From: Naumannella cuiyingiana
GTDB taxonomy: Bacteria > Actinomycetota > Actinomycetes > Propionibacteriales > Propionibacteriaceae
Assembly (NCBI RefSeq): GCF_013408305.1
Contig: NZ_JACBZS010000001.1
Location: forward strand, 1,736,001-1,800,000
Length of the DNA: 64,000 nt
Direction of reading: 5' to 3'
Shown: piece after piece, positions 27,187-50,765 of the stretch
How positions within the stretch are numbered: position 1 is the stretch's first letter
How the letters are laid out: each line of letters begins with the position of its first letter
Notes under the pieces: model-generated
Database searches by the model: none
What the model saw: the letters and a program-made list of their open reading frames with translations, nothing else
What the model was told of the DNA's origin: nothing
Position numbers and translations under genes: made by a program

Positions 27187-27256
27187 GCCATCGCCGGCTC
27201 GCCGAGGACGCCCGGGCCAGCACCGTTCGATCCAGCCAAATTGGAGGATGTCGATC

Positions 27257-28198
27257 ATGAAAATGGGACTCATCGGACTGGGCAAGATGGGCGGCAACAT
27301 GCGGCAGCGGCTGCGCAACGCCGGCATCGAGGTCGTCGGATACGACCGTGACCCCGCACTCACCGATGCCGCCGATCTTGCCGATCTCGTCGGCCAGCTC
27401 GGCGACTCGCCGCGGATCGTCTGGGTGATGCTGCCGATCCAGGCGGTGCCGGAGACGCTGGCGACCCTCAAGGAGCTCCTGGGCGAGGGCGATGTGGTCA
27501 TCGACGGCGGCAATTCCAAGTGGACACACGATGTGCCGAATGCCGAGCTGCTCGCCGAGAAGGGCATCGGCTATCTGGATGTCGGCGTGTCCGGTGGGGT
27601 CTGGGGCCTGGAGAACGGGTACGCCCTGATGGTCGGCGGCTCCAAGGAGAATGTCGCGAAGGCCCTGCCGATCTTCGAGGCGCTGAAGCCCGAGGGCCCC
27701 TACGGCTACGTGCATGCGGGCGGCGTCGGGGCCGGCCACTTCGCGAAGATGGTGCACAACGGCATCGAGTACGGAATCATGCAGTCCTACGCCGAGGGCT
27801 GGGAGCTGCTGACCGCGGCCAGCGCGGTGGACGACGTGCCGGCGGTGTTCGAGTCCTGGCAGGAGGGCACCGTGATCAAGTCGTGGTTGCTCGAGCTCTG
27901 CGTCCGGGCCATGCAGGAGGACCCGAACCTCGATCACATCCGGGGGTACGCCGAGGATTCCGGCGAGGGCCGGTGGACCGTCGAGGCCGGGATCGATCTT
28001 GCCGTCCCGACGCCGGCGATCACCGCATCGCTGTATGCCAGGTTCGTGTCCCGCCAGGAGGATTCGCCGGCGATGAAGCTGGTCGCGGCGATGCGCAATC
28101 AGTTCGGCGGGCACAAGGTGCTGGCCGAGGACGAGAACTCCCGCGACGACGCCAGCGATCGTCTCGGCGAGGGCGCCGCGGGCCGGGCCAAGGCCTGA
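27257..28198 (+). CDS. gnd: 6-phosphogluconate dehydrogenase, short (YqeC-type)
   Basis: The 313-residue enzyme has MKMGLIGLGKMGGNM (NAD(P)-binding), DGGNSKWTHD, SGGVWGLENGYALMVGG and the catalytic Lys/Asn in HFAKMVHNGIEYG. Its length matches the short Gnd class rather than the 470-residue form. It oxidatively decarboxylates 6-phosphogluconate to ribulose 5-phosphate. The ATG at 27257 is preferred to 27248 because GGAGG abuts the latter. It lies between dnaN and recF as in many actinobacteria. Confidence 0.93.
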   Translation: MKMGLIGLGKMGGNMRQRLRNAGIEVVGYDRDPALTDAADLADLVGQLGDSPRIVWVMLPIQAVPETLATLKELLGEGDVVIDGGNSKWTHDVPNAELLAEKGIGYLDVGVSGGVWGLENGYALMVGGSKENVAKALPIFEALKPEGPYGYVHAGGVGAGHFAKMVHNGIEYGIMQSYAEGWELLTAASAVDDVPAVFESWQEGTVIKSWLLELCVRAMQEDPNLDHIRGYAEDSGEGRWTVEAGIDLAVPTPAITASLYARFVSRQEDSPAMKLVAAMRNQFGGHKVLAEDENSRDDASDRLGEGAAGRAKA

Positions 28199-28211: not shown

Positions 28212-29366
28212 CTGTTCGTCGATCACCTGACTCTCGCCGACTTCCGGTCCTATCCGGCGGTTGATCTTGCGCTCGGCCCGGGTCCGACGACCTTCGTCGG
28301 ATCCAACGGGCAGGGCAAGACCAATCTGGTGGAGGCGATCGACTACCTCGCCACGCTCGGCTCGCACCGGGTCGCCTCGGACGTGCCGCTGGTGCGGCAC
28401 GGTGCGGAGCGGGCGCTGGTCCGGGGCCGGGTGCGCGCCGGTGTCGAGGATGACCGGGCCGTGCTGCTGGAGGTGGAGATCAATCCGGGGCGGGCCAACC
28501 GGGCGCGGTTGAACCGGTCGCCGGTGTCCAGGCCGCGCGAGCTGCTCGGCATCTTGCGTACCGTCGTCTTCTCCCCGGAGGACCTGGCGGTCGTGAAGGG
28601 CGACCCGAGCGAGCGGCGGCGGTTCATCGACGAGCTGGTGATCACCCGCTGGCCGAGGCTGGCCGGTGTCCGGGCCGACTACGACAAGGTGTTGCGGCAC
28701 CGCTCCACGCTGCTGAAGACCCTCGCCGGCCGAGGGCCGGTTCGCGGCGGGGGAGGGCACGGCGATGCCGAACACACCCTTGGCGTCTGGAACGACCAGC
28801 TCGCCCGGCACGGCGGCGAGTTGCTCGAGGCGAGGTTGCGTACCCTCGCCGACCTGGTCCCGCATGTCGCCGCCGCGTACGCCGCGATCGCCCCGCGCAA
28901 CAATGTCGCGACGGCGACCTATCAGCCGGCCATGCCGCTGCCGGCCGAGATCGATCGCACCGCGCTGGCGGCCGCGCTCACCGACCAGATGGCGCAGCGT
29001 CGCGACGAGGAACTGCGGCGCGGGGTCACCCTGGTCGGCCCGCATCGCGACGAGATCGCGCTGGCGCTGGGCGAGCTGCCCGCCCGCGGGTACGCCAGTC
29101 ACGGCGAGTCCTGGTCGTTCGCGCTGGCGCTGCGGCTCGGCGGATTCGATCTGCTGCGAGCCGACGACCTGCAGCCGGTGCTGATCCTGGACGATGTGTT
29201 CGCCGAGCTCGACTCCACCCGCCGTGAGCGGCTGGCCGGCCGGGTCGCCGAGGCCGAGCAGGTGCTCGTCACGGCGGCCGTCGGCGGCGATGTGCCGGCG
29301 AGGCTGGCGGGGAACCGGTTCGTTGTGGACGATGGAACGGTGACGCCAGCCGAGGACCGACCGTGA
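28212..29366 (+). CDS. recF: DNA repair/recombination protein RecF, probable CTG start
   Basis: RecF similarity begins FVDHLTLADFRSYPAVDLAL at 28215. Walker A is VGSNGQGKTNLVEAI, the signature region is SHGESWSFALALRLGGF and Walker B is PVLILDDVFAELD. No ATG, GTG or TTG occurs in frame between the gnd stop and the Walker A motif; a CTG at 28212 sits exactly where the family Met is expected. That gives 384 residues. RecF loads RecA at gaps. The only normal start, GTG 28329, would delete the P-loop. Confidence 0.88.
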   Translation: MFVDHLTLADFRSYPAVDLALGPGPTTFVGSNGQGKTNLVEAIDYLATLGSHRVASDVPLVRHGAERALVRGRVRAGVEDDRAVLLEVEINPGRANRARLNRSPVSRPRELLGILRTVVFSPEDLAVVKGDPSERRRFIDELVITRWPRLAGVRADYDKVLRHRSTLLKTLAGRGPVRGGGGHGDAEHTLGVWNDQLARHGGELLEARLRTLADLVPHVAAAYAAIAPRNNVATATYQPAMPLPAEIDRTALAAALTDQMAQRRDEELRRGVTLVGPHRDEIALALGELPARGYASHGESWSFALALRLGGFDLLRADDLQPVLILDDVFAELDSTRRERLAGRVAEAEQVLVTAAVGGDVPARLAGNRFVVDDGTVTPAEDRP

Positions 29367-29914
29367 GCGAGCCGCCCGGGCCCGGGCAACCCGCCGGGCA
29401 GCGGCGACCCGAGCTGCCCGAGCACGACGCCACCGGGCTGGACCTCGCGCGCCAGATCGCCGGGGGAGTGGGCGCCGGCGGCCGCCGGCGCCGCCGGAAG
29501 AGCTCCGAGGCCACCGGCCGCCCGGCCGGCCCGCAGTTGTCCGGATCGCGGCCCGACGACCGCGACCCGCAACCACTCGGCACGACGATGGACCGGTTGT
29601 TGTCCGACCGCGGCTGGCGCGTGCGGGTGAGCGTCGCGCTGCTGCTGGCCCGGTGGCCCGCGCTGGTCGGCCCGGTTAACGCCGACCACAGCGCACCCGA
29701 GTCGTTCGAGGACGGCGACCTCACCGTGCGGGCCGACTCGACGGCCTGGGCGAGCTCGCTGCGGGCGATGGCGCCGCAGGTGGTGGCGAAGCTGAACGCC
29801 GAGCTCGGCGACGGAACCGTGCGCCGGATCCTGGTCCGGGGCCCGGATGCGCCGAGCTGGAAGCACGGCCCACGCTCGGTCCGCGGCCGGGGCCCGCGCG
29901 ACACCTACGGGTAA
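29363..29914 (+). CDS. DciA (DUF721) replicative helicase-loading protein
   Basis: The GTG start overlaps the recF stop. The 183-residue protein has a disordered basic N-terminal half (GGRRRRRKSS) and a DUF721 domain: LLSDRGWRVRVSVALLLARW, LVGPVNADHSAPESFEDG, WASSLRAMAPQVVAKLNAEL. DciA proteins recruit or load DnaB where DnaC/DnaI are absent. The recF-dciA-gyrB order is usual in actinobacteria, but here gyrB is 3.6 kb away. Confidence 0.88.
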   Translation: MSEPPGPGQPAGQRRPELPEHDATGLDLARQIAGGVGAGGRRRRRKSSEATGRPAGPQLSGSRPDDRDPQPLGTTMDRLLSDRGWRVRVSVALLLARWPALVGPVNADHSAPESFEDGDLTVRADSTAWASSLRAMAPQVVAKLNAELGDGTVRRILVRGPDAPSWKHGPRSVRGRGPRDTYG

Positions 29915-29954: not shown

Positions 29955-31325
29955 ATGGCAGCACTGCGCCTGTTCTGGCACCAGTTCTACGACCTGGCGG
30001 TCACCACGGTGACCGTCTGGTGGCGGCTGCTGCCGAAATTGCTGCTGATCCAGCTGATCGGCTGGACGGTCTACAACGCGCTGCAGCGGCTCGGCGCGAT
30101 CAGCGCCGCCCAGTCGACCTGGCCGGCGATCGCGATCTTCGCCGCCGGCCTGCTCTGCCTGCTGATCGCCTACGTCACCTCGCTGCGGCTGGTCGGGCGG
30201 GAGCTCGGCATCCGCGATGTGGTGCCCCGCGAGGTGGAGGATGATCGCGACGACTCCCTGACCCGGATGCTCGCGGCGACGCTGCTGCCGTTCCTCGGTA
30301 TCTACGCCGCGTTCGACTACATCCGCGACGAGTCCGCGGACATGATCGTGCTGGCCGAGATCATGTACGGCGGGGCGTTCGGTCGCGGCATCCTGCAGGA
30401 GATCAACCCGAACGCCGGGCCGCGCACCCTGGCGCTGGTGGTCGGCGTACTGGTCGGCATCTATGTGGTACGCCGGGGCTTCGACCTGCTGCACGAGCGC
30501 ACCGGGTGGCGGGCCTTTGGGATCGTGGCAGCACTGCTGGAGGCCTTCTTCCTGGTCCTGGTGATCTTCAGCGGTGGACGGCTGCTGGAGTCGTTGCGGC
30601 TGTGGTGGGAGGACCGGCAACTGCACGAGTGGCTGGAGACCCTGACCGCCGGGCTCGCCGTCGCCGTGGAACCGCTGCGGATCAACCTGCCCGCGGTGCT
30701 CACCGCGCTGGCCCGCGGCCTGGACACGCTCTGGGGCTGGTTCGTCACCGGGATGGCCGAGCCGCTGGCCTGGCTGGCGGTCGCCGCGTTGGTCTTCGGA
30801 TCCCATGTGCTGTCGCTGGCGGAGATGTGGCGCAAGGGCCAGCCGCTGACCAGCCACGTCCTCCCGCGGACCCGGCTGGCTCGGGCCCCCGCCGCCAAGA
30901 AGGGCAGCGGGACCACCGGCCGGCGGATCTGGCTGGAGATCCAGGAGCTGTTCTTCGGCGACATCGACGACCGCTACCTGCCGACCCTGCAGTCCATCCG
31001 GATCGTGCTGCGACCCGGCCTGACCTTCCTCGCGGCGTACCTGCTCTGGTACGCGCTGCTGGACGGCGCCCGCACGGCCTTCTTCGACCGGATGGTCACC
31101 GCCGTCGGCGGCGCCGACATCCCGTTCTGGTTGCAGTGGCTGCCGGCGATGGAACTGGTCAGCGACCTGCTCTACCAGCCGCTGTTCATCTGCCTGCTCG
31201 GCGTGACATTCCATCGTTGCCTGCTGACCCTGCGCGGTCGGGCCAGCACCGGTCCGGCGCAGCGGCCGAGCCGCGTGGTGCTGGCGCCCGCGCAGCCGGC
31301 ACGGTCCGCGGAGGGTACGCCGTGA
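29955..31325 (+). CDS. Hypothetical polytopic membrane protein
   Basis: The 456-residue protein has about eight hydrophobic helices, including LLPKLLLIQLIGWTVYNAL, AIAIFAAGLLCLLIAYVTS, LALVVGVLVGIYVV and IVAALLEAFFLVLVIF. A cytoplasmic loop near residues 305-340 is basic (KGSGTTGRR) and the tail is proline-rich. I do not recognise a family. It overlaps the next gene by GTGA and so forms an operon with two secreted-domain proteins. Confidence 0.7.
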   Translation: MAALRLFWHQFYDLAVTTVTVWWRLLPKLLLIQLIGWTVYNALQRLGAISAAQSTWPAIAIFAAGLLCLLIAYVTSLRLVGRELGIRDVVPREVEDDRDDSLTRMLAATLLPFLGIYAAFDYIRDESADMIVLAEIMYGGAFGRGILQEINPNAGPRTLALVVGVLVGIYVVRRGFDLLHERTGWRAFGIVAALLEAFFLVLVIFSGGRLLESLRLWWEDRQLHEWLETLTAGLAVAVEPLRINLPAVLTALARGLDTLWGWFVTGMAEPLAWLAVAALVFGSHVLSLAEMWRKGQPLTSHVLPRTRLARAPAAKKGSGTTGRRIWLEIQELFFGDIDDRYLPTLQSIRIVLRPGLTFLAAYLLWYALLDGARTAFFDRMVTAVGGADIPFWLQWLPAMELVSDLLYQPLFICLLGVTFHRCLLTLRGRASTGPAQRPSRVVLAPAQPARSAEGTP

Positions 31326-31975
31326 GCTCGCCCGTGACGCAAGGCTCGGCGCCGGGCGAATCGGGGCACCTGAGCGCGATCCGCTTCGGTGCCGGTGATG
31401 TCGCGCCGCGCGAGCCCCGCCGGCGCCGGGTCCCGGCAATGGGGTTGATCATCCTGCTGGTGGTCGCGACGTTCTCGGGCTGGCTGTCGCAGCTCGGCGC
31501 CAGCAACGAGATCACCTATGTCGACCGGGCGTACCCGGTCGGCGCGACCGTGCAGCACAAGGAGGCCGACCTCCGGGTGGACAGCATCGATGCGGCGACG
31601 ACGGTCAACGAGCAGCCGACCGACGGGCTCTTCCTGATCGTCGGGCTGACGCTCGCCAACACCCGGGGCACCGATGGTGTCAGCATCGGCCACTACGAGT
31701 TGGTCACGCCGGACGGGGTCACCTACTCGGCGTCGACGGTGTCGGCGCCCCGGGTGCAGCCGGGCTTCCGGGAGAGCTTCCGGCTCCCGGTCGTCGTCGA
31801 CCCCGCGCGGCTGGAGGGCCTGCGGCTGCGGCTCTTCGACACCCCGACCTACACCGTGAGCGAGCCGCGGGAGACGGTCGATCTCGGCATCGACGCCGCC
31901 GACGCCGAGCGGCTGCGGGCGTCGGCCAATCGTGCGGTCGAGATCGAGACCTCCACACCGGAGGGCATCCGATGA
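31322..31975 (+). CDS. Hypothetical membrane-anchored protein, DUF4352-like domain
   Basis: The GTG at 31322 overlaps the preceding stop. The 217-residue protein has a basic cytoplasmic tail, one helix (AMGLIILLVVATFSGWL) and an extracellular beta domain with ADLRVDSIDAATTV, FLIVGLTLANTRGTDGVS and VQPGFRESFRLPVVVDPARL. The strand pattern is that of DUF4352-type Ig-like domains. It overlaps the next gene by ATGA. Confidence 0.7.
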   Translation: MSSPVTQGSAPGESGHLSAIRFGAGDVAPREPRRRRVPAMGLIILLVVATFSGWLSQLGASNEITYVDRAYPVGATVQHKEADLRVDSIDAATTVNEQPTDGLFLIVGLTLANTRGTDGVSIGHYELVTPDGVTYSASTVSAPRVQPGFRESFRLPVVVDPARLEGLRLRLFDTPTYTVSEPRETVDLGIDAADAERLRASANRAVEIETSTPEGIR

Positions 31976-32502
31976 GTACGCCGGTGGCGCCGCGCCGATC
32001 CGGACGTACCCGGGTATGGCTGCTGGTGATCATCATCGCGAGCATCACCGGGAGCCTGATCGCGGGCTGGGTCTTCTATGTCGGTACGTTCACCTCCGAC
32101 CGGTTCGGGCAGTTGCCGCCGGGCGCGGCATTCCGCAACAACAACGGCTTCTCGATCCGGGTGCTGAGGCTGACCGCCCGGCCGTCGATTCCGGGCACCA
32201 TCGAGCCGGACCCGGCCCCGCCCGGGGCCGTTTTCGTGGTTGCCGACCTGGAGGTGACGGCGCCCGATCCGCTGCCCGCCGAGGGCGGCTGCAGCATGGA
32301 GCTGGTCGGCCGCGGCGGCCGGACGTGGGAGTCGTCGTTCCAGAGCCTCCCCGACATCCCGTCGGGGTGTTCGGACCTGCTGCCGGGTGAGACCGGCGCG
32401 GCCGCGGTCGTCTACACGGTGCCGGCCGCCGAGCTGGGCTCGATCTACGGGCTGGGTTTCGAGAATTTCGACGGCTCGCGGGACATGGTGATCCGGCCCT
32501 GA
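31972..32502 (+). CDS. Hypothetical membrane-anchored protein
   Basis: The 176-residue protein has one N-terminal helix (VWLLVIIIASITGSLIAGW) and an extracellular domain. That domain has two cysteines (GGCSMEL and SGCSDLL) and the pattern PGAVFVVADLEVT then AAVVYTVPAAELG, again DUF4352-like. It is the last gene of the coupled three-gene set and faces a related leftward gene across 7 bp. Confidence 0.7.
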   Translation: MSTPVAPRRSGRTRVWLLVIIIASITGSLIAGWVFYVGTFTSDRFGQLPPGAAFRNNNGFSIRVLRLTARPSIPGTIEPDPAPPGAVFVVADLEVTAPDPLPAEGGCSMELVGRGGRTWESSFQSLPDIPSGCSDLLPGETGAAAVVYTVPAAELGSIYGLGFENFDGSRDMVIRP

Positions 32503-32509
32503 CCGGCGA

Positions 32510-33157
32510 TCAGTTGTCGGCGACCACGGTGACGGGCAGATAGAGCTGGTAGCCCTCGCCGTTGGTGCCCCAACTGTCCACGTAGTTGCCCAGATAGGAG
32601 TGGTCCTCGTAGGTGAGCTGGGACACGCCCAGCCGGAGGTAGCCCACCGGCCGGTACTGGTACGGGAGGGTGAATTCCACCCGGTAGTCGGTGGCCGGCA
32701 GGCCCGGGGTGAAGGTGCTGATGCCGCCCACCCCGTTCTCCCGGGGCGGCCCGACCTCCTGGCTCTCGCCCTCGACCGCCATCCCGTTCGTCGGGTCGCC
32801 CAGCGCGAACGTGTTGAAGACGATGGGTGCCTGGGCCTGATCGGCGTCGACCAGCCGGCCGGTGCCGTAGGCGGTGACATTCCACTCGGGCTCATCCAAC
32901 AGGGTGCTGCGGGAGACGGTGATGTGGGTGAAGGCCAGCTCGTAGGGGCCGATCCGCAGCAGCGTACCGGGCGGCACGATCGGCCAGGTCTGCCGCTGGC
33001 GGGTGGAGAAGCCGCCGCCGATCAGCACCGCCGCCGACGCCAGGATCAGCACGCCGGCGAGGATGCCGACCAGCAACGCCCGGTTACGCCGGGCCCGCCG
33101 CGGCTCGCGCCAGCGCGGATCCAGCGCTGCCGGATCCCGCCAGACCTGGGTGCTCAC
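32510..33157 (-). CDS. Hypothetical membrane-anchored protein
   Basis: From GTG 33157 the protein has 215 residues: a basic cytoplasmic tail, one helix (ALLVGILAGVLILASAAVLI) and an extracellular domain rich in beta strands and aromatics (DYRVEFTLPYQYRPVGYLRL). It has the same plan as the two proteins encoded by the opposing operon. An ATG at 33220 would add 21 residues without a clear ribosome-binding site. Confidence 0.65.
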   Translation of the reverse strand: MSTQVWRDPAALDPRWREPRRARRNRALLVGILAGVLILASAAVLIGGGFSTRQRQTWPIVPPGTLLRIGPYELAFTHITVSRSTLLDEPEWNVTAYGTGRLVDADQAQAPIVFNTFALGDPTNGMAVEGESQEVGPPRENGVGGISTFTPGLPATDYRVEFTLPYQYRPVGYLRLGVSQLTYEDHSYLGNYVDSWGTNGEGYQLYLPVTVVADN

Positions 33158-35575
<2,418 letters not shown>

Positions 35576-35590
35576 GGGTTTGCGATTGTC

Positions 35591-35602
35591 GCACGATCGT
35601 GC
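35591..35602. repeat. Palindrome after gyrB
   Basis: GCACGATCGTGC is a 12-bp perfect palindrome 15 bp after the gyrB stop. It may help form a terminator or be a regulator site; no T tract follows. Confidence 0.35.
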
Positions 35603-35743
35603 CGGCGGCCCTGACCGCTCGGCGACGTCGGCGATGCTCGGACATGATCAACGTTGTCGAGCGGTCTCCCCGCACCTGGCGGCTCCGAACTATGGCGGCG
35701 CCCGCAACGGCCGTGACAGAATCTGCCTAGATGATGAAACCAT

Positions 35744-35759
35744 TTCCGATATATGGGAT
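35744..35759. promoter_or_regulatory. Island operator 1 (before eda-like/kdgK-like operon)
   Basis: TTCCGATATATGGGAT matches the palindrome TTTCGATATATCGAAA at 12 of 16 positions. It lies 27 bp before the aldolase start. It is the weakest of the recurring sites. Confidence 0.45.
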
Positions 35760-35786
35760 TCAGACACTCGGGCGAAAGGTTGGTCC

Positions 35787-36434
35787 ATGACCGCAGGCCG
35801 CAGACCGGTAGTGCCTGTGAGCCCGGGGGTGATCGCGATCATCCGACTACGGCACATCGCCCCGCCCGAGGAACTGATCGAAGGCCTCGTCGCGGGAGGC
35901 GTCCGAATCGTCGAGGTGACCTTGCCGACTCCCGAGAGTCTCTCCACCATCCGCCGCTGGAGCGCTCGCGACGACGTGCTGGTCGGCGCCGGCACGGTTC
36001 GGACGCCGGGGGATGTCCACTCGGCAGCCGATGCCGGAGCGCGCTTCATCGTCACGCCGACGACGGTCCCGGCTGTGATCGCCGCGGCTCGCGAGCGCGG
36101 CCTTCCGGTGACCTGCGGGGCACTGACCCCGACCGAGATCGACGCGGCTGCGAGCCTCGGTGCGGACTGGATCAAGGTGTTCCCGGTCGAGACGGTTGGC
36201 GGCCCCGCCTATGTGTCGGCGGTCGTCGCGCCACTCGACGACATCGCGCTGGTGCCGACCGGTGGTGTCGATGCGCGACTGGCGGAGCGATACGCAGAGC
36301 TCGGCTGCGCGGGGGTCGGGGTGGGCTCCTGGCTGGTTGACGAGCGGTCCGTCCACGCCGGCGAGTGGCACGACATCCGGTCCAGGGCGCGCGAGATCAC
36401 CGATGCGTGGGCGCGTGGGTCGGAGCGGCGATGA
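35787..36434 (+). CDS. KDPG/KHG aldolase family protein
   Basis: The 215-residue class I aldolase resembles Eda. It has GVIAIIRLRHIAPPEEL, the catalytic Glu in RIVEVTLPTPESL, VGAGTVRTPGDV, the Schiff-base Lys in ADWIKVFPVETVGG and LVPTGGVD. It should cleave a 2-keto-3-deoxy-6-phospho sugar acid to pyruvate and glyceraldehyde 3-phosphate. AAAGG lies 7 bases before the ATG. It overlaps the sugar-acid kinase by ATGA, which pairs the last two steps of the pathway. Confidence 0.88.
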   Translation: MTAGRRPVVPVSPGVIAIIRLRHIAPPEELIEGLVAGGVRIVEVTLPTPESLSTIRRWSARDDVLVGAGTVRTPGDVHSAADAGARFIVTPTTVPAVIAAARERGLPVTCGALTPTEIDAAASLGADWIKVFPVETVGGPAYVSAVVAPLDDIALVPTGGVDARLAERYAELGCAGVGVGSWLVDERSVHAGEWHDIRSRAREITDAWARGSERR

Positions 36435-37372
36435 CTGGCGCGCCCGAAGTGGTGACCATTGGCGAGACGCTCGCCAGCCTCCGGGCAAGTGGCGATCTGC
36501 GCGTCGCTACGCCGGTCTCGCTGTCCATCGCGGGCGCCGAGTCGAACGTCGCGATCGGCCTTGCCCGCCTTGGCCACGCGGTTCGGTGGGCCGGAGTCGT
36601 CGGCGACGACGCGTTTGGCCGACTGATCACCCGAACCTTGCGCGGGGAGGGCGTGCAGACCTCGAGCCGCACGATCGCGTCGCCGACCGGAATGATCGTC
36701 TTCACCGCTCGGCCGCCGACGGCGATCACCGTCGACTATCACCGCCGGGCTTCTGCCGGCTCGGCGCTCGACCTCGCCGACGTCGAGGCAGCGATGGCCG
36801 ATCCGCCCCGCATCCTGCATCTGACCGGGATCACGCCGGCGCTGTCGCCGAGCGCGCTGGCTGCCGTGCGGGCCGCGATCGATCGTGCGAGCGAGCAGGG
36901 TGTCCAGGTTTGCCTGGACGTCAACTACCGATCCCGGCTGTGGTCTCGCGCTGAGGCCCGCGCAACCATCGCGCCCCTCGCGGCGCGGGCCGATCTGATC
37001 ATCGCCTCCGATGATGAACTCGGGCTCGCAGTCGACGTGCCGAGCACCGACCCGCGTACCGGGATCGACACCCTGCTTGGGCACGCGACCGCGGTCATCG
37101 TCAAGCGCGGGTCGCACGGCGCAGCGGCCTACACCCGCGCCGGTGAGGTCCAGGTCGACGCCGTGGCCGTGTCCGCGATCGATCCGGTCGGTGCCGGCGA
37201 CGCCTTCGTGGCCGGGTTTCTGTCGGGAACACTGGATGGCTTGCCGCTGGTCGAATGCATGCAGCGCGGTGCGCTGTTGGGCGCGTTCGCGGTTGCCAGC
37301 ATCGGCGATTGGGAAGGCCTGCCGTTGCGTACCGATCTGGGCCGGCTCGACGAGGAGGGTGTCATACGTTGA
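36431..37372 (+). CDS. PfkB-family carbohydrate kinase, probable 2-keto-3-deoxygluconate kinase
   Basis: The 313-residue ribokinase-fold enzyme has VTIGETLASLR, the N-terminal PfkB motif IAGAESNVAIGLARLGH, VCLDVNYRSRLW and the catalytic Asp in SAIDPVGAGDAFVAGFL. Translational coupling to a KDPG-aldolase-like gene supports 2-keto-3-deoxy-sugar-acid kinase activity (KdgK). The exact epimer is unknown. Confidence 0.85.
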   Translation: MTGAPEVVTIGETLASLRASGDLRVATPVSLSIAGAESNVAIGLARLGHAVRWAGVVGDDAFGRLITRTLRGEGVQTSSRTIASPTGMIVFTARPPTAITVDYHRRASAGSALDLADVEAAMADPPRILHLTGITPALSPSALAAVRAAIDRASEQGVQVCLDVNYRSRLWSRAEARATIAPLAARADLIIASDDELGLAVDVPSTDPRTGIDTLLGHATAVIVKRGSHGAAAYTRAGEVQVDAVAVSAIDPVGAGDAFVAGFLSGTLDGLPLVECMQRGALLGAFAVASIGDWEGLPLRTDLGRLDEEGVIR

Positions 37373-37390
37373 GGTCGGACCGTCCCGACC
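37373..37390. terminator. Short hairpin between convergent kinase and permease genes
   Basis: GGTCGG (37373-37378) pairs with CCGACC (37385-37390) across six bases in a 24-bp convergent gap. Outer GTTGAG and CTCAAC can extend it. Confidence 0.45.
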
Positions 37391-37396
37391 CGACGC

Positions 37397-38323
37397 TCAA
37401 CCCTTGATGGCCCCGGCCGTCAGACCCTCGGCGATCCGCCGCTGCAGGAGCGCGAACACCACCAGCACGGGGACGACCGTGATCATTATCGCGGCGAACA
37501 ACGTGACCCAGTTGCTGCTGTAGGTCGCGGCCTGGCTGAGCTGCCACAGGCCTACCGGCAGCGTCATGTTCTCCTTCGTCCGGATCAGCACGAGTGCATA
37601 GAAGAATTCGTTCCAGTTGTTCAGGAAGCTGATGATCGTGATCGACGCCACGCCGGGGCCGAGTAGCGGGAGGATGATCCCGAAGAAGGTGCGCGCCGGG
37701 CCGGCTCCGTCGATCGCTGCGGCCTCCTCGAGCTGGACCGGCAAGGTACGCATGAAGCCCACCATGACGAAGATGTTGAACGGCAGGTTGTAAGTCGCGT
37801 ACACCAAGATCAGACCGAGCTGGGTGTCCAGCAATCCGATGTCGCGAAGCGTCAGGTACAGCGGGATGAAGGTCACCATCCAAGGGACCATCAGGCCCAG
37901 GATGAACACGCTCAACACGATGCCACTGCCGGGGAACCGAACCCGCGCCAGCGGATAGGCCGCAAGGACGGAGAAAAACACCCCGAGCACGGTGGCTGTC
38001 ACCGCGACGAGGACGCTGTTTCCGAAGAACATGGCCACGCCCCCGGCGTTCCAGGCTTGGCGGTAGTTCTCGAACTCCCACGATCGGGTGAGCGAGAACG
38101 GAGGGCTCGTGATGAACTCGACGTTCGTCTTCAACGAAACGTTGATTACCCAGGCGAAGGCCGCAACCGCCGAGAATGCACCCGCCCCCATCAGCAGGTA
38201 GAAGAACAGATGGAAGGGGCGAAACCTGGCGCGGTCCGAGACCGCCGGACGCCGGTGTCGCCGACGGATCGGTGGACGTTTGGGGCCCGAGTCGGTGGGC
38301 CTGGCGATCGTCTCAGTACTCAA
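37397..38323 (-). CDS. Carbohydrate ABC transporter permease (MalG/UgpE-type)
   Basis: The 308-residue permease has six helices and the cytoplasmic EAA loop EAAAIDGAGPARTFFGIILP that docks the ATPase. The start overlaps the upstream permease by about 11 bases. With the lipoprotein and the other permease it forms a CUT1 importer. No ATPase gene is present in the island, so a shared MsiK-like ATPase is inferred. Confidence 0.92.
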   Translation of the reverse strand: MSTETIARPTDSGPKRPPIRRRHRRPAVSDRARFRPFHLFFYLLMGAGAFSAVAAFAWVINVSLKTNVEFITSPPFSLTRSWEFENYRQAWNAGGVAMFFGNSVLVAVTATVLGVFFSVLAAYPLARVRFPGSGIVLSVFILGLMVPWMVTFIPLYLTLRDIGLLDTQLGLILVYATYNLPFNIFVMVGFMRTLPVQLEEAAAIDGAGPARTFFGIILPLLGPGVASITIISFLNNWNEFFYALVLIRTKENMTLPVGLWQLSQAATYSSNWVTLFAAIMITVVPVLVVFALLQRRIAEGLTAGAIKG

Positions 38324-39191
38324 TGCTGTCTCGCTTCAAGAGCTTGTTGAGAACCAGTGCCGCAGCCATCAGCAACACCACGACAATCACCCCCATCGCC
38401 GCAGCGGAGCCGAAGTCCCCGGTGTCGAAGGCGGTCCGGTACATCACAGTCGCAGGAATGTCGGAGGAGAAGTATGGCCCTCCGTCGGTCATGATGTAGA
38501 CGAACGCAAATGCCTGCAGGGATTGCACCACCCACAAGATGATCAAGGTCCGGAACAAGTCGCTCATCATCGGCAGCATGATCCGGGTGAAGAGCTTCCA
38601 CTCGCCGGCGCCGTCCAGACGCCCGGCCTCGAGGACATCGGCGGGCATCCGCGAGAACCCGGCGGAGATCAGTAGGATCCAGATGCCGATCCCGTGCCAA
38701 ACTGCAACCAGGGCGATCGCGGGAAGAGCGGTGCGGGGATCGCCCAACAGGATCGGAATCAGGTCACCGAAGCCGATGGAGGCGAACGCCGGATTGATCA
38801 GTCCGAGCGTCGGATGAAAGATGAACTTCCACATGAGCGCGACCACGGCGACAGAGAGCACCACGGGCGCGAAGATCAGGAAGCGAAAGACGCGCTCGCC
38901 GTGCAGGCGCTGATTGAACGCCCAGGCGATGGCGATGGCCGGCGGGAAGAGCATGAGACCGCCGACCATCGCCAACAGCACGGCGTGGCCGAGCGATTGC
39001 AGGAAGCGTTCATCGCCGATCACGTCGGCGTACTGGGCCATGCCGACAAAGGAAGCACGTCCGGTGCGGGAGAACTCCTGAGTCGAGAGCTCGACGGTGC
39101 GCGCCAAGGGATACAGGAAGAAGACCGTCAGCAGCAGCGACGCCGGCAGCAGGAAAGGGATCACGATTCGTCGTTGCGATCTCGCAAACAT
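38313..39191 (-). CDS. Carbohydrate ABC transporter permease (MalF/UgpA-type)
   Basis: From the ATG at 39191, with AGGAGG and GGAG upstream, the protein has 292 residues and six helices. Its EAA loop is LEAGRLDGAGEWKLFTRIMLP. An ATG at 39227 would add 12 residues but has no ribosome-binding site. It is the first of the two permeases after the binding protein. Confidence 0.92.
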   Translation of the reverse strand: MFARSQRRIVIPFLLPASLLLTVFFLYPLARTVELSTQEFSRTGRASFVGMAQYADVIGDERFLQSLGHAVLLAMVGGLMLFPPAIAIAWAFNQRLHGERVFRFLIFAPVVLSVAVVALMWKFIFHPTLGLINPAFASIGFGDLIPILLGDPRTALPAIALVAVWHGIGIWILLISAGFSRMPADVLEAGRLDGAGEWKLFTRIMLPMMSDLFRTLIILWVVQSLQAFAFVYIMTDGGPYFSSDIPATVMYRTAFDTGDFGSAAAMGVIVVVLLMAAALVLNKLLKRDSIEY

Positions 39192-39250
39192 CGCTCTCCG
39201 CCCTCCTGACGTTGGCGACCTCGGCATGGCGCGGGAGCGCCGACTGTCGA

Positions 39251-40600
39251 TCAGTTCTTGTGTATCTTCCGTAGCTGCTCGTCCAGACGAGCGAGCGTCT
39301 GCGTGGCATCCTGCTCGCCGAACATCAGCCGTGTCACCTCCGCGTAGACCACGTCATAGGCCTCGGTGTCCTTCATCGCGAACTCTCGTGGCACCAGGGC
39401 CGATGCATCGGCCATCACCGTATCGATGCCGGTCACGCCGGAAGGGCTGGGGACTCCGACAACACCGGAGAGCTCACCGAACTTCTCGGCCCGCTCTGCC
39501 TGCACTTCCGGGCTGGTCACCCGGCGCACCCACTCCAGGGCGAGCGGGATGTTCTCGCTCTTGGCATTGATCGACATCTGTTGCGGTGCCGCCATGATCG
39601 CCTTCTGGTCGCCGGCTCCGCCGGCAACCTCAGGGAAGGGGAGTACGCCGATCTCGAAGTCATCGGGGATCACGTCCTTCATCTCACTGACCAGCCAGCT
39701 ACCCATCAGGATCATCCCGGTCTTGCCCTGGAAGAACTGCGCCTGTGCGGCGGTGAAGTCGGTTCCCTGGAAGCCCGACATCAGGTACCCGCCATCGCGA
39801 AGGTCCTGAACCTTCTGCAGCCCGCGGAGGAATCCGGGGTCATCGGTGATCCTGCCCTTGCCGTTCACCAGCACATCGTTGGCGGTGGTCCATCCGACCT
39901 CGCGCAACCACAGGTTGTCGGACCACATCCCCATGTAGGGCTGATAGAGACCCGTAATGGCGATCGGGTCCACACCGGCCGCCTTGAGGTCGGCCGATGC
40001 CTTCATCAGCTCGTCCCACGTGGTGGGCGGCTTGATCCCGCTCTCTGCGAAGATCTTCTTGTTGTAGAACAGCACCTGGGTCGACAACTCACTGGGTACG
40101 CCGTACACGCCGCCGTTGTCGGGATTGACCATGAACCCCGAGGCCGCCGGGGTGAATGACTCACCCCAGGTCTTGCCGGTTGTCGGGTCCGGCGCGTCCA
40201 GGTAGGGCTTGAGGTCGAGCAGGAAGCCGTCATTGGCCCACACTCGCTGGCTCGGGACGGTGCCGTCGAACATGCCGTAATCGACATCGGGACCGTCGCC
40301 GGAACGCCAGCGTTGTTCCAGCGCCGGGCGGGCCTCGGAGTTGGCAAAGGTCAGCGTGATCTTGGTGCCCGGATAGTCGGCTTCGATCTCACGCGCAAGC
40401 TTCTCGAGGTAGGCCAGTCCCGGGGTTCCCTCGGCAGGGATCACGCCGACCTCGATCGAGCCGGAGATGTTGTCGCGCCACGTGTTGGGATCCGGGCCTT
40501 CTGACGCCGGGGGACCGCCGACAGGCCCACTCGAACAAGCCGCGAGCAAGACGCCGGCCATGGCCAGCGGCAGGCTGAACCTGATGCGCTTGAGTTTCAT
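39251..40600 (-). CDS. Extracellular sugar-binding lipoprotein (SBP family 1)
   Basis: The 449-residue protein has a lipoprotein signal ending LLAAC with lipidated Cys22. The family-1 solute-binding pattern follows: GPDVDYGMFDGTVPSQRVW, GVYGVPSELSTQVLFYNKKIF, PTTWDELMKASADLKAAGVDP and FFQGKTGMILMGSWLVSEM. It should deliver a mono- or oligosaccharide to the two permeases. The promoter at 40601-40720 carries two palindromes. Confidence 0.92.
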   Translation of the reverse strand: MKLKRIRFSLPLAMAGVLLAACSSGPVGGPPASEGPDPNTWRDNISGSIEVGVIPAEGTPGLAYLEKLAREIEADYPGTKITLTFANSEARPALEQRWRSGDGPDVDYGMFDGTVPSQRVWANDGFLLDLKPYLDAPDPTTGKTWGESFTPAASGFMVNPDNGGVYGVPSELSTQVLFYNKKIFAESGIKPPTTWDELMKASADLKAAGVDPIAITGLYQPYMGMWSDNLWLREVGWTTANDVLVNGKGRITDDPGFLRGLQKVQDLRDGGYLMSGFQGTDFTAAQAQFFQGKTGMILMGSWLVSEMKDVIPDDFEIGVLPFPEVAGGAGDQKAIMAAPQQMSINAKSENIPLALEWVRRVTSPEVQAERAEKFGELSGVVGVPSPSGVTGIDTVMADASALVPREFAMKDTEAYDVVYAEVTRLMFGEQDATQTLARLDEQLRKIHKN

Positions 40601-40668
40601 GTGTGCCCCTTCGGTAGCCCGCGTACCCCGCTGGACGACGCCCTATTCACCCGAGAAGATTCGACGCG

Positions 40669-40684
40669 ATTCAATATATCGAAA
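40669..40684. promoter_or_regulatory. Island operator 2 (before the ABC transporter operon)
   Basis: ATTCAATATATCGAAA matches TTTCGATATATCGAAA at 14 of 16 positions. It is the best match of the recurring sites and lies 69 bp before the binding-protein start. Confidence 0.6.
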
Positions 40685-40691
40685 ATATAAC

Positions 40692-40710
40692 TACGATTTC
40701 GTAAATCGTA
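40692..40710. promoter_or_regulatory. Second palindrome in the ABC operon promoter
   Basis: TACGATTT and AAATCGTA are perfect 8-bp arms around CGT. The sequence differs from the island operator and may bind another regulator, for example a LacI- or GntR-type protein encoded elsewhere. Confidence 0.5.
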
Positions 40711-40750
40711 AGGGACAGGTCAGCCGCTGACAAGGGGTCTACGCGGGTCC

Positions 40751-41740
40751 TCACTCCTCGTCCTCGATCGGTCCCAGGTACGGCAGGAACTCGGCGAACT
40801 CGATCAGGAACCGGTCCACTGCGTCGCGCTCGTGGTCGTCGAGGTCGCGGCGCGGGGCGCGGCAGTGGTCGCTGCGGAAGAGCCCGCGACGGACCGAGAT
40901 CAACTTCTCCGCGGCGATGATCAGCTCGGTGTCGAGCATCCAGTAGGAGGTGAACGGCAACAGGCGGGCGTGCAGCCGATCGGCGTCATCGAAACGACCG
41001 GCCTCGTACAAGCGCCAGATCTCCTGGTAGATCTCGGTGAACGAGCAGCCGGGCTGGGTGCCCACCGCACCCCGGCGAATGGCGTCGGGCAGTTGCACGC
41101 CCGCATAGCCCTCGACGGCGGGGATCGGAGGGTCGAGCCTGGAGAGCTCGGTGATGAACGGCCCTGGCGGGCTCGACTCGACCTTGACCAGCGTGAGATT
41201 CGGGTGATCGCGAGCGATGGCAGCAAGCCGGGACACGTCGAGCGCGGTGCCGGTCTCGTTCGGGGCGTACTGGAGCACCACGGGCGTGGTCGGCACCTCG
41301 GCCAGCACCGCCCGGATGTGCGCCTCGATCATGGGCGCGGGCGGTTTGAGCAAGTGCGGCGGGAGCAGATTGATTGCCTTCGCGCCGACCGACACCGACC
41401 ACGCCGCCCGCTCGGCGGCCAGTCGTGTCGCGTGATCCTGCACAGCCGCGATCACCACCGTGTCCGGGAAGGCGCGGGCCTCGGACACGAGCACCTCCAT
41501 CAGGCATGCGCGCTCGGTCTCGGAAAGCTTGTAGAACTCGCCGGCGAAGCCCGGGAACATCACGCTGGCGACGCCGGTGCCGAGGACGTAGCGCACCACG
41601 CGGCGAAAACCGGCCAGATCGACATCGCCGGACTCGGTGAACGGCACCTCGAGCACGGGCGACACCCCGCGAATGGCCCGGGCGGCGGCGAGTCCCTCGA
41701 GTGGGTCGTTGGCCCCCGGTCGAAGTCTCGTCATCGTCAT
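40751..41740 (-). CDS. DapA/NanA-superfamily lyase or dehydratase
   Basis: The 329-residue TIM-barrel protein has the family pattern SVMFPGFAGEFYKLSETERA, the tyrosine in VVLQYAPNETG and the Schiff-base Lys in LTLVKVESSPPG. The usual GTTGE loop reads GFAGE, so the carboxylate-binding threonines are replaced. Relatives act on 2-keto-3-deoxy sugar acids (aldolase) or 5-keto-4-deoxyglucarate (dehydratase). Two ATGs are possible, 41740 and 41734. Confidence 0.85.
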   Translation of the reverse strand: MTMTRLRPGANDPLEGLAAARAIRGVSPVLEVPFTESGDVDLAGFRRVVRYVLGTGVASVMFPGFAGEFYKLSETERACLMEVLVSEARAFPDTVVIAAVQDHATRLAAERAAWSVSVGAKAINLLPPHLLKPPAPMIEAHIRAVLAEVPTTPVVLQYAPNETGTALDVSRLAAIARDHPNLTLVKVESSPPGPFITELSRLDPPIPAVEGYAGVQLPDAIRRGAVGTQPGCSFTEIYQEIWRLYEAGRFDDADRLHARLLPFTSYWMLDTELIIAAEKLISVRRGLFRSDHCRAPRRDLDDHERDAVDRFLIEFAEFLPYLGPIEDEE

Positions 41741-41819
41741 GGTTGATCCCCTTTTGGCCACGTGGAGGCTGGTTTCGGTGTCGCGCGAGGTCGGACCGAG
41801 ATCCGCGACCGGCTGCTCC

Positions 41820-42563
41820 TCATCCGGATCCGAGACCGAGCAGTGCTGCGATGGTCCCGCCGAGTACGCGAGCTCGCGCGGGTTTGGCAAGCGGCCAGTC
41901 GACGACGCGCCGTAGTTCGCCGACGGTGGTGGCGTACGGCAGGTCGGAGGAGAACACAAGGCGCGATGAGCCGATCTGCGGGTCACGCTCGAATTCGCTG
42001 AGGACGGTGTCCCAAGGTGCGTAACAGGTGTCACCGTAGAGGTTCGGCGCGAGGCGCAGCGCCGGGGCTGCGTCGATCCAGAAGTCGGTCGCGCCGCTGC
42101 GGCCCATCACGAACGCAACTCCCGGGTGTCGACGCGCCAGGGCAGCCGCGGGCAGCGGCAGATGTCCGGGCGGCGTACCGGTGCGAACGTAGACCGGCCA
42201 GTCGTGTGCGTCGGCGAAGTCGATGAGGGGATCGACCAACCCGTCCAGCAGGTCGAAGCCCTGCAAGCTGGAATCGATGGCGAGCGCGCGGGCGCCATGA
42301 TCACGTGCCCAACCCAACTCGGTCAGGGCGTCCGCGCGGCGCCAAGGATTCGCCACGGCGTACGCCAGCAGCCGCCCGCCCGAGCGCTCCGCGGCGGTGG
42401 TTGTGGCAGCGTTGCCGGCGCGGTTGTGGTAGGCGATGTCACCCTCGCTCGGCGCAATCAAGGCTCGGTCGATGCCGTTTCGATCCATCGTCGCCAGCAG
42501 ATCATCGACTGCCAGCGCGCAGTCGCGCTGCGCTCCGATGCGGACGTGCGCGTCGATGATCAT
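41820..42563 (-). CDS. Amidohydrolase_2 paralogue with lost metal ligands
   Basis: The 247-residue protein matches its two neighbours in length and strand order but not in catalytic residues. The N-terminal HxH reads DAHVRIG, the third-strand position reads VYVRTGTPPG and the MGH position reads FVMGRSGA. The final Asp (VFSSDLPYA) remains. It is therefore unlikely to bind metals in the usual way. It overlaps the preceding gene by ATGA and ends the five-gene coupled operon. Confidence 0.75.
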   Translation of the reverse strand: MIIDAHVRIGAQRDCALAVDDLLATMDRNGIDRALIAPSEGDIAYHNRAGNAATTTAAERSGGRLLAYAVANPWRRADALTELGWARDHGARALAIDSSLQGFDLLDGLVDPLIDFADAHDWPVYVRTGTPPGHLPLPAAALARRHPGVAFVMGRSGATDFWIDAAPALRLAPNLYGDTCYAPWDTVLSEFERDPQIGSSRLVFSSDLPYATTVGELRRVVDWPLAKPARARVLGGTIAALLGLGSG

Positions 42564-43447
42564 GACCGCGCCGCCCGTGGATCGGGCAGCGCGAGCGCTT
42601 CGAGGGCTTCGGCGTGGATGATCTTCTCGATCACCTCGGCCGGGATCCGCGGCAATCGTGACCCCTCGACGATGTCGTTCACCGCGCGCAGTCCGGCGAT
42701 GGCTTCGGCCGTGGTGGCGATGGGGAAGTCCGAGCCGAGCAGCAGCTTTCCCGCCGCGCCCCACTCGACGGCATACAGCAACGACTCATAACACACCCAC
42801 GGGCGCAGGTAGATCGAGGAGACGTCGGCGTACACGTGCGGGTGCTTGCGGATCGTCACGACTGTCTCGCGCGCCCAGGGGTGTCCCATGTGCGCCATCA
42901 CGATGCGCAGCTCCGGGCAGGCGATCGCGATCTCGTCGGTCACCAGTGGGAACGTGTAGCGCAGCGGAGCGTGCCGGATCGGGGACGCGCCCTGGTGGAA
43001 CAGGATCGGCAGCCCCTCCCGTTCGCAGTACCGGTAGAACTGCATCGCCGCGTCCCCGAGCGGGTCGAACTCCTGGTAGTTGGCGCCGAGCTTGACTCCG
43101 AGCAAACCGAGCGAGCGCGCCTCCTCCACCTGTTCCCAGACGTCGGGCGCCATGGGATTCACCGACATGAAGCCGATCCGCTTGTCGGGTCGCGCTGCGA
43201 CGTACTCGGCCGTCGCGACGTTCGTCCTCTCCGGCGGGTAGTCCAGGCCGGTCGAGGACACCGGATCGTCGACCGCGATGTTGAACACGATCGCGACATC
43301 GGCGGCATCGGCGGCGGCATCGAAGTCGGCCCAGCTGTTGGAGGTGATCACCGCGCGATCGGTACGCCAGGCGTCGTAGCTTCGGAGCTCCGCGTTCGGG
43401 ACCTCGCGCTCGTGGGTCGGGGTGTGGGTGTGGACGTCGACGATCAT
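42560..43447 (-). CDS. Amidohydrolase_2 family hydrolase
   Basis: The 295-residue TIM-barrel hydrolase has HxH in IVDVHTHTPTHE, LLGVKLGANYQEFDP, His in ILFHQGASP, His in IVMAHMGHPW and Asp in LLLGSDFP. Relatives include lactonases for sugar acids and decarboxylases. Coupling to a MocA-type dehydrogenase makes a lactonase role attractive but unproven. Both ends overlap neighbours by ATGA. Confidence 0.85.
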   Translation of the reverse strand: MIVDVHTHTPTHEREVPNAELRSYDAWRTDRAVITSNSWADFDAAADAADVAIVFNIAVDDPVSSTGLDYPPERTNVATAEYVAARPDKRIGFMSVNPMAPDVWEQVEEARSLGLLGVKLGANYQEFDPLGDAAMQFYRYCEREGLPILFHQGASPIRHAPLRYTFPLVTDEIAIACPELRIVMAHMGHPWARETVVTIRKHPHVYADVSSIYLRPWVCYESLLYAVEWGAAGKLLLGSDFPIATTAEAIAGLRAVNDIVEGSRLPRIPAEVIEKIIHAEALEALALPDPRAARS

Positions 43448-44208
43448 CGGGTGCTCTTCTCCAGCAGACGGCGCGGATTGTCCACGAGCATTGCCTGCCG
43501 TTGCTCGGGTGTGACACCCCACTCATCGATCTCTCGGATCCGTGCCACGGCGAAGTCCTGGCTTGCCTTGTCCGACAGGCCGGCATCCGTGCCGAACAGC
43601 ACCTTGTGCGCCGGCGCCCGATCCAAGATCGTCTTGGCTGCGTAGGGCGGTGTGCCGCAGATGCACAGGTAGAGGTTCTCGGTGTCCTGGGTGCAGACCA
43701 ATGCCTCGCGCCAGAGGTCGTGGAGGCCGCCGTGACCCAGGATGATCGGCACGTTCGGGTGCCGCCTCGCCAAGGTGGCGATCTGGGTCGGCGTCGCGTA
43801 GGGCGGCGTCCCGTCGTGGCAGAGCACCAGACCGTTGTGCGTGGCGACAACCTCCAGGATCGGGTCCAGCGCGACTTCGTGGACGCTGAATCCCTGTAGC
43901 CACGGGTGTAGCTTCACCCCGCGAAGGCCCAACTCGGTAAACGTCCGCTCGATCTCCGCGGCCGCGGACGGCTTGCGTGGGCTGTAGGTGCCGAAGCCGA
44001 TCAGCCGGTCAGGATACTGAGCAACGAATCGGGCCAGATCGTCGTTGGCCTCGGGGGTTGAGTCGAACAGGCCGTCATGGCTGAGCACGACTGCACGATC
44101 GATGCCGCAGGTATCCATGAAATCGATGAAGTCATCGGCGCTGAAGGTCGTTCCGCCGAGCCAGGACGTGCCACGCCAGATCGGGGTGTGCGTGTGGAAG
44201 TCGATCAT
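43444..44208 (-). CDS. Amidohydrolase_2 family hydrolase
   Basis: The 254-residue hydrolase has an intact set of ligands: HxH in MIDFHTHTPIW, His in GVKLHPWLQGF, His in LVLCHDGTPPY, His in IILGHGGLHD and Asp in LFGTDAGLSD. It is the most canonical of the three paralogues. Overlaps with creatininase-like and amidohydrolase genes show translation as one unit. Confidence 0.87.
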   Translation of the reverse strand: MIDFHTHTPIWRGTSWLGGTTFSADDFIDFMDTCGIDRAVVLSHDGLFDSTPEANDDLARFVAQYPDRLIGFGTYSPRKPSAAAEIERTFTELGLRGVKLHPWLQGFSVHEVALDPILEVVATHNGLVLCHDGTPPYATPTQIATLARRHPNVPIILGHGGLHDLWREALVCTQDTENLYLCICGTPPYAAKTILDRAPAHKVLFGTDAGLSDKASQDFAVARIREIDEWGVTPEQRQAMLVDNPRRLLEKSTR

Positions 44209-44948
44209 GGCGCCAGGACACCGAACCGGGTCGACAATGCGGTGATCAGCTCCCGCCAGTAGGTCGCGCCGGCCGCCCGACTGGCGCGGTCGGGATGGTC
44301 GCTGTATCCGTCGATCTCGGCCCAGGCCGCGCGGCTGTGAGTCTCCATCCCCGGGCCGGCGACGATCGGGGTGGTGGCTGCGGGCGGGTCCGGGCGATGC
44401 GGCGCCCGGCGTACCAGGTCCGGTCGCAGCTCAAGCATGATCGAGGTTTCGAACGCGCCGGCGTGACCGGGCACCGGGGGATCGCCCGGTTCGCCGGACC
44501 GGTCGAGGGCGCGCCAGTAATCGATGTGAGTGACACTCAGCTCGCTGCGGGCGGCCGCCGCGCCGGCCGCGGCCTGGCAGATCCCTGAGTTCCCCCCGTG
44601 CCCGTTGAGCAGAAGCACCCGTGTGGCGCCTGCCCCGGCGATCGAGGCAAGCAGATCGGTGATCACCGTCAACAGGGTTTCCGCGCGCACCGAGAGGGTT
44701 CCGCCGAACGGGAGGTGATGATCGGATGCGCCGATGCAGAGCGGAGGAGCGATCACGAAGCTCCCACCGGACTCGGCGGCGTGATCCGCGGCGGCCCGGG
44801 CGAGCGCGCGGGTGATCATGAAGTCGGTTCCGGTGGGCAGGTGAATGCCGTGCTGTTCCACAGCTCCCAGCGGGACGATCACAAGCGCGTTGGGCAGCAG
44901 GTCCGCCAGGGTCGCGCGGTCGCAGGCGGCCCACTCCACGACGCTCAC
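44205..44948 (-). CDS. Creatininase family hydrolase
   Basis: From GTG 44948 the protein has 247 residues. It has the creatininase metal motifs LGAVEQHGIHLPTGTD, LLLNGHGGNSG and HAGAFETSIMLELRP. Family members hydrolyse cyclic amides or related bonds (creatinine, formamidopyrimidine) and some act in cofactor maturation. The substrate is unknown; the context suggests a sugar-derived lactone or amide. It overlaps the MocA gene by GTGA. Confidence 0.85.
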   Translation of the reverse strand: MSVVEWAACDRATLADLLPNALVIVPLGAVEQHGIHLPTGTDFMITRALARAAADHAAESGGSFVIAPPLCIGASDHHLPFGGTLSVRAETLLTVITDLLASIAGAGATRVLLLNGHGGNSGICQAAAGAAAARSELSVTHIDYWRALDRSGEPGDPPVPGHAGAFETSIMLELRPDLVRRAPHRPDPPAATTPIVAGPGMETHSRAAWAEIDGYSDHPDRASRAAGATYWRELITALSTRFGVLAP

Positions 44949-45970: not shown

Positions 45971-45978
45971 GGATTAAC

Positions 45979-45994
45979 TTTCGCTATTTCGAAT
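45979..45994. promoter_or_regulatory. Island operator 3 (before the MocA operon)
   Basis: TTTCGCTATTTCGAAT matches TTTCGATATATCGAAA at 13 of 16 positions, including a complete left half-site. It sits 8 bp upstream of the dehydrogenase start. Confidence 0.55.
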
Positions 45995-46049
45995 TGGTTT
46001 CCTCAGTATTGAAGGTGATGTTAGCGTCGGCGCGAAAGGCCGCGCAAGG

Positions 46050-46862: not shown

Positions 46863-46934
46863 GGCGAAAGAATAGTTCGTAGGACCCGTCGGGAACCGGC
46901 CCAGTTCTGCGGGACCCCCCGCCGGTGAGGCCAT

Positions 46935-50722: not shown

Positions 50723-50729
50723 GATGATC

Positions 50730-50765
50730 CTTTGAAATATCGAAAATACCTTTGTATTATCGAAT
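50730..50765. promoter_or_regulatory. Island operator 4, two sites (before the glycosidase gene)
   Basis: CTTTGAAATATCGAAA (50730-50745) matches TTTCGATATATCGAAA at 13 of 16 positions. CTTTGTATTATCGAAT (50750-50765) matches at 10. Their 20-bp spacing puts both on one face of the helix. Confidence 0.55.

Follow-up and report, generated by a model that had tools for sequence, protein, structure and literature searches.

Four genes lying between dciA and gyrB in Naumannella cuiyingiana, here called A, B, C and D, form a set whose members recur together: B, C and D are found at the same locus as A for 66 of 68 distinct A copies, a co-occurrence well beyond chance. The set was first seen in a 64,000-nt stretch of contig NZ_JACBZS010000001.1 (positions 1,736,001 to 1,800,000; the window). 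A encodes a polytopic membrane protein, while B, C and D encode single-pass proteins. The overall best explanation, which we hold with middling confidence, is a four-subunit envelope complex with A as core and B, C and D as outer subunits. That four uncatalogued genes have stayed a set through inversions, fusion, duplication and dispersal across two phyla argues strongly, on genetic grounds, for a multi-protein machine that is new to the catalogues.

Co-occurrence and layout of the four genes

Profiles for A to D were run on 5030 open frames from 99 sources (the window and 98 loci); removal of 10 loci repeating named ones and of 2 fragment rows left 68 distinct A copies from 81 rows. An automatic rule (B, C and D all ≤5 kb from A) recognized the complete set in 56 of these, and 10 more were recovered. 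In eight (L150-L157) C was missed by the first profile; a C profile of wider scope recognizes the frame lying between A and B (15.8-30.9 bits), which has two cysteines in each printed sequence, although in L155 the B profile matches it about equally (1.3e-5 vs 9.9e-6 for C). All three frames are present by eye in L088, where B and C score alike, and in L090 B and D were located beyond an insertion of ~4 kb. Of the two exceptions, L109 ends at a contig end, and L111 is a 5-kb contig of a metagenome-assembled genome (MAG) with other genes after B, the C and D of the same genome residing on another contig (L105). Only four frames away from A gave hits at E<1e-3: B and D of L090, and C and D of L105.

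Loci without A tell the same story. A single one of the 22 carries part of the set (L105, a contig end with C and D), the other 21 having no B, C or D; five of the 22 (L080, L084, L086, L105, L106) belong to genomes with A elsewhere. Among 57 genomes (that of N. cuiyingiana and its relatives), every genome with a match to D (15), C (15) or B (8) also has a match to A. Propionibacteriaceae supplied the training set of the first profiles for B, C and D, and the A profile was built from 30 sequences, distant ones included, so that near relatives match by construction. The independent tests are therefore the distant actinobacterial loci and ten further proteobacterial loci (L160-L169), in all ten of which B, C and D have one best match each. 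L132, L158 and L160-L169 were kept out of the second-round profiles of B, C and D, and the C profile held no rows from L150-L157; as the frame sets were small (414 frames for L160-L169, a few dozen for L150-L157), bits weigh more than E-values here. The gene caller, trained on five window genes, made no calls in some low-GC relatives, and the profile counts are independent of it. In the annotation of six of the L160-L169 loci all four genes are given as “hypothetical protein” and the flanking genes vary; three further records of this group carry no annotation at that place.

An initial annotation, made from the window sequence, had proposed a single module, against which orthologues scattered without co-occurrence would have spoken; the neighbourhood survey finds them together. 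It had also treated D as a third protein of the same plan facing the others, and D proves to be a full member of the set rather than a mere neighbour. That four unrelated membrane genes are neighbours by chance could appeal to how little sequence identity B, C and D share, but is refuted by the co-occurrence counts, and we give it practically no weight.

The set is preserved across five layouts (arrowheads give gene direction). The most frequent, A> <C <B <D, occurs in 34 of the 68 copies, including those of Planomonospora, Mycolicibacterium and Achromobacter, and also in nine of the ten L160-L169 loci. The window type, A> B> C> <D (27/68), follows from it by inversion of C-B. Four copies (L112, L114, L115, L125) have A> B> C> D>, and in L046 D lies upstream of A> B> C>, separated from them by another gene. 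The tenth proteobacterial locus, L160 (Shinella sp. WSD5-1, 4959-7982), has A> D> B> C>, all four genes co-directional unlike those of the other nine, and this is an inversion of B, C and D together. D is absent from the contig in two copies.

In nine of the 68 copies A and B are a single frame of ~550-660 codons. On the best tree the fusion label changes three times, and strongly supported branches force one change; there may have been as few as one independent fusion event. Whole modules are also duplicated: Desertihabitans aurantiacus (L120, 4676-11040) has, between dciA and gyrB, a tandem pair of whole A-B-fused modules whose A copies have diverged, and Enemella evansiae (L127) has a second, unlinked module beside fatty-acid genes (named from sequence starts). 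In a Micropruina MAG (L128, 8001-10373) the A frame lacks a stop and continues over B into the C frame, which is either a real fusion or an assembly error.

Features of the four proteins

The window locus is laid out in Table 1; the initial annotation had placed a four-gene set there between dciA and gyrB, and it is present as described. The C and D stop codons are separated by the 7-bp gap it had noted (32503-32509). The genome of N. cuiyingiana holds one copy of A. GC content at third codon positions is 0.90-0.94 in A to D and 0.91-0.95 in dnaA, dnaN, recF, dciA and gyrB; we thus read A to D as ordinary genes of this genome. A promoter scan of the locus gave no promoter-like site, and a terminator scan gave two terminator-like sites, both inside genes (0.9 expected).

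Table 1. Coordinates of the module and its direct neighbours in the window.
Feature	Position	Strand	Description
A	29955-31325	+	456 aa; polytopic membrane protein, ~8 spans, N-in/C-in; proposed complex core
B	31322-31975	+	217 aa; GTG start; 4-bp overlap with A; single-pass
C	31972-32502	+	176 aa; 4-bp overlap with B; single-pass
D	32510-33157	-	215 aa; GTG start; convergent to C; single-pass
dciA	29363-29914	+	left neighbour; name from the initial annotation and position
gyrB	33506-35575	+	right neighbour; name from the initial annotation

B, C and D each have one N-terminal span behind a basic N-terminus (residues 37-55, 17-35 and 28-46, respectively). Compared profile against profile, B-C scored 97% and C-D 88%, B-D alone being weak (36%); the span helices contribute to these scores and may raise them. 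The B of Sinorhizobium meliloti matches the second-round B, C and D profiles at 1e-20, 1e-8 and 1e-7. This suggests a remote relationship among B, C and D, whose cross-matches are explained by one putative ancestor and an early triplication. The view in the initial annotation that the three share architecture but little sequence, as if one partner had diversified, fits these matches.

Structure models exist for two of the outer domains. The D model (mean predicted local distance difference test score, pLDDT, 89.6) has a helix at 26-46 followed by nine strands in a beta-sandwich. Its closest folds are YjhA (Z 9.0), CD630_09570 (8.9) and MPT63 (1lmi, 8.9), only slightly above the best Z of 7-8 usual for models without a clear match, and Foldseek returned no match for D at E≤0.001. 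The second is an AlphaFold2 model of a natural A-B fusion from Auraticoccus (L119, 653 residues; mean pLDDT 86), with a helical core, a helix at 466-488 and a sandwich from 495; in the alignment behind it the spans of separate B rows are misplaced. Residues 494-622 match YxkC (Z 10.7), YjhA (10.1), YcdA (9.6) and MPT63 (9.4). With the whole fusion, Foldseek gave one PDB match at E≤0.001, CD630_09570 (3.9e-4), and two viral models; sandwich or lipoprotein entries head the list, which gives no residue ranges. We take YjhA, YxkC and YcdA of B. subtilis and CD630_09570 of C. difficile to be DUF4352 proteins. The outer domains of D and of the B homologue in the fusion are thus modelled as beta-sandwiches of the DUF4352/MPT63-like type, and the Ig-like outer domains foreseen for all three proteins are borne out for these two, to which the models are confined. 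An Ig fold has been reported for DUF4352 (PMC4520260).

By sequence the link to DUF4352 (PF11611) is faint. Window B scored 19.4 bits, below the cut-off of 25.9, and window C and D had no match at E≤1; at E≤0.1, DUF4352 was found in one of 18 B sequences (that of the window), one of 22 C and none of 21 D. The PDB gave B, C and D a few weak sequence hits (best E 0.03). Putative lipoprotein is the title given to YcdA and to an S. aureus match; B, C and D instead each have a membrane span and lack the lipidated N-terminal cysteine of DUF4352-type lipoproteins, window B and D containing no cysteine at all and C107 and C133 being the only ones in C. They also differ from DUF4352 proteins in that the three occur together and alongside A. 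The M. tuberculosis protein MPT63, of the same fold class, is secreted according to its PDB title, whereas B, C and D are membrane-anchored and belong to a module. C107 and C133 are invariant in 22 aligned relatives, and C is probably held by a disulfide. PCuAC copper-binding domains were among the D matches (Z 6.4-7.7); metal binding by the outer domains was marked down because the alignments, which comprise close relatives, have no conserved His, Met or Cys set in B or D and only the Cys pair in C.

A fits no family that we searched. Window A matched no Pfam family at E≤1 and nothing in the PDB by sequence at E≤10; among 30 relatives, three Pfam families appeared at E≤0.1 with one member each, none of which matches window A. 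No Pfam, NCBIfam or PADLOC family scored above its cut-off for A, B, C or D. In the structure search with the A-B fusion, sandwich matches fill most of the list. A weak local score to the YedE selenium transporter (TIGR04112; 19.1 bits over 50 residues) lies far below the required 200 bits, and this identity was rejected. With ~8 hydrophobic spans, their limits set by hand, A has 23 Lys and Arg in the loops assigned inside and 9 in those outside, fitting the N-in/C-in topology. The best-kept residues across 76 A proteins (weighted) are W273, P270, G282, G355, Y117, P112, F113 and W217. Charged residues are conserved as well: R173 (R/K 97%) and E196 (E/D 93%), both in or near the membrane, R349 (81%) and R221 (78%). 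P343 and R349 lie in a conserved cytoplasmic stretch before span 7. The 45 best-kept columns include no His, Cys or Asp, and no enzyme-like motif was seen in the conservation of A.

A proposed envelope complex

We consider it very probable, from the strict set, the A-B fusions and the matching topology, that A, B, C and D form a physical complex. A would be the integral core, with its ~8 spans and both ends cytoplasmic. B, C and D would be three distinct single-span subunits anchored by the N-terminal helix, their DUF4352/MPT63-like domains placed outside the membrane over A; the natural fusions are the reason for proposing that B contacts A at the C-terminal side of A. The outer subunits would derive from one ancestor, their separate roles acquired before the module spread. 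What the complex does is a more tentative matter. A transport or gating role is possible, in which A would act as a channel or secondary transporter, the outer domains would cap or select, and an envelope molecule or an ion would be handled passively or by ion coupling. We favour this role because no ATPase gene belongs to the set, no enzyme motif and no kept regulator were seen, there are three outer domains, and charged residues lie in or near the membrane.

Several points weigh against these proposals. Genes kept side by side may serve one pathway without their products binding each other, and the fold of A could prove to be that of a known enzyme or transporter. A missing catalytic motif is weak evidence, and transport is a guess from absences. 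The module is dispensable, window A having a match in 28 of the 57 genomes, its own included; D stands apart from A in L046; and the A-B fusions may go back to that possible single event.

A sensing or stress-signalling complex, in which B, C and D would bind an outside ligand and A would relay it to the cytoplasm via the conserved loop before span 7, would also make use of three distinct outer domains and of the stretch with P343 and R349. In the flanks read, where most genes were judged only from their location or the first part of their sequence, no gene is kept beside the module except dciA/recF and gyrB, and the flanks differ from place to place; we consider signalling unlikely.

The architecture of the proposed complex recalls the mycobacterial MmpS-MmpL pairs, in which a single-span protein with an outer beta-domain stands next to a polytopic partner. 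The present set differs from them: A has ~8 spans in 456 amino acids and no Pfam family, there are three outer partners rather than one, and no RND-type MmpL domain was found in A by sequence (window A, Pfam E≤1; 30 relatives, E≤0.1). Searches of an open-access library turned up no description of the module among the titles and abstract starts listed; most subscription papers were outside this scope, so absence from print is not proven. In our searches neither the core nor the four-gene set could be assigned to a known family or system, though the activity may prove to be of a known kind. We judge the chances about even that they represent an undescribed class of envelope complex, defined by a familyless core, three paralogous and non-interchangeable outer subunits, inheritance as a strict four-gene unit and carriage between Actinomycetota and Pseudomonadota, partly on plasmids. 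If so, part of the large DUF4352/MPT63-like fold group would gain a partner and hence a function. The natural A-B fusions offer a ready construct for structure work, and the rhizobial plasmid copies tractable hosts.

Distribution and genomic position

Some distant copies escape the query with window A; one in G040, for example, was recovered with the A profile. Scoring the best 21-28 candidates per genome, so that weak copies may be missed, the A profile matched at least 10 of 79 genomes in the class of the window genome (its own included), at least 2 of 61 in the family of an Achromobacter genome (one being that genome) and at least 1 of 80 in the phylum of the latter (that genome alone). A GTDB pattern scan gave 26 named loci, including Enemella, Microlunatus, Granulicoccus, Tessaracoccus, Aestuariimicrobium, Auraticoccus, Desertihabitans, Propionicicella and Micropruina, with Planomonospora, Mycolicibacterium and Achromobacter as distant members. 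With the Achromobacter A as query, 40 of 72,556 plasmid records match (Sinorhizobium 17, Ensifer 9, Rhizobium 6, Paracoccus 4, Shinella 3, Agrobacterium 1), 17 of them typed as conjugative; window A has no match among the plasmid records. Nine of the 40, all from Alphaproteobacteria, were inspected, and their flanking genes are unrelated wherever annotated. Some genomes carry several A copies. Among L087-L099, several genomes have another, remote module that is complete with B, C and D and whose A is 23-28% identical; in L091-L094 (a family with 8-Mb genomes) it lies beside MoaD-like and release-factor-like genes (named from sequence starts).

This patchy spread over two phyla, partly on conjugative plasmids and in several copies in some genomes, would suit a self-contained, portable protection module, e.g., against phage, toxins or membrane-active compounds. 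Against it, the four window proteins match no PADLOC anti-phage family at E≤0.1, no phage record matches window A or the Agrobacterium A, and Propionibacteriaceae keep the module at a stable chromosomal site; we find protection quite unlikely. A phage origin of the module was likewise rejected for want of a matching phage record.

The gene order in the window is dnaA, dnaN, gnd, recF, dciA, A to D, gyrB. In 28 of the 68 copies, from the family of the window genome and a second family of the order, dciA/recF lies upstream and gyrB downstream; nine copies have one of these neighbours, and 31 have neither or lie at a contig end. PMC5720831 describes a mycobacterial operon in which dnaN, recF and dciA stand between dnaA and gyrB-gyrA, DciA being next to recF. 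Judged by that arrangement, the module interrupts the usual gene order, as the initial annotation had said. At A-less loci with callable genes gyrB directly follows dciA, except in L067 and L077, both from one genus, where a ~310-aa gene with a kinase-like start lies between them; the site thus takes inserts. In a tree of 66 A proteins, a single branch separates all copies with B co-directional or fused from the rest (34 rows, support 100/99), and this group adjoins the origin-linked copies of the second family (96/81). From this placement, the dciA-gyrB site is probably older than both.

High gene dosage near the origin had been suggested as a consequence of this position. It is unlikely to be the point of the placement, given the 31 copies that lie at other places or at a contig end and the nine copies inspected on plasmids, which have unrelated neighbours where annotated. 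A growth-linked scaffold for assembly of the cell wall or envelope would explain the origin-near seat; it is consistent with the flanking dciA/recF and gyrB in two families, and the outer fold recurs in YxkC, which has been modelled with DacA (9a4z), presumably a wall enzyme. The same 31 copies, those on plasmids and the absence of an A match from about half of the relatives argue against such a scaffold, and we regard it as improbable.

Two further features of the region lie outside the module. A gene taken as gyrA (51073-53700; 75% identity to the gene after gyrB in L108) is ~15.5 kb from gyrB in the window and directly follows gyrB in several relatives; the interval (35576-51072) is by appearance an island for sugar-acid catabolism and transport, its genes named from sequence starts. 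A 6-phosphogluconate dehydrogenase-like gene (27248-28198) lies between dnaN and recF, and M. smegmatis has such a gene in the same region (PMC5720831).

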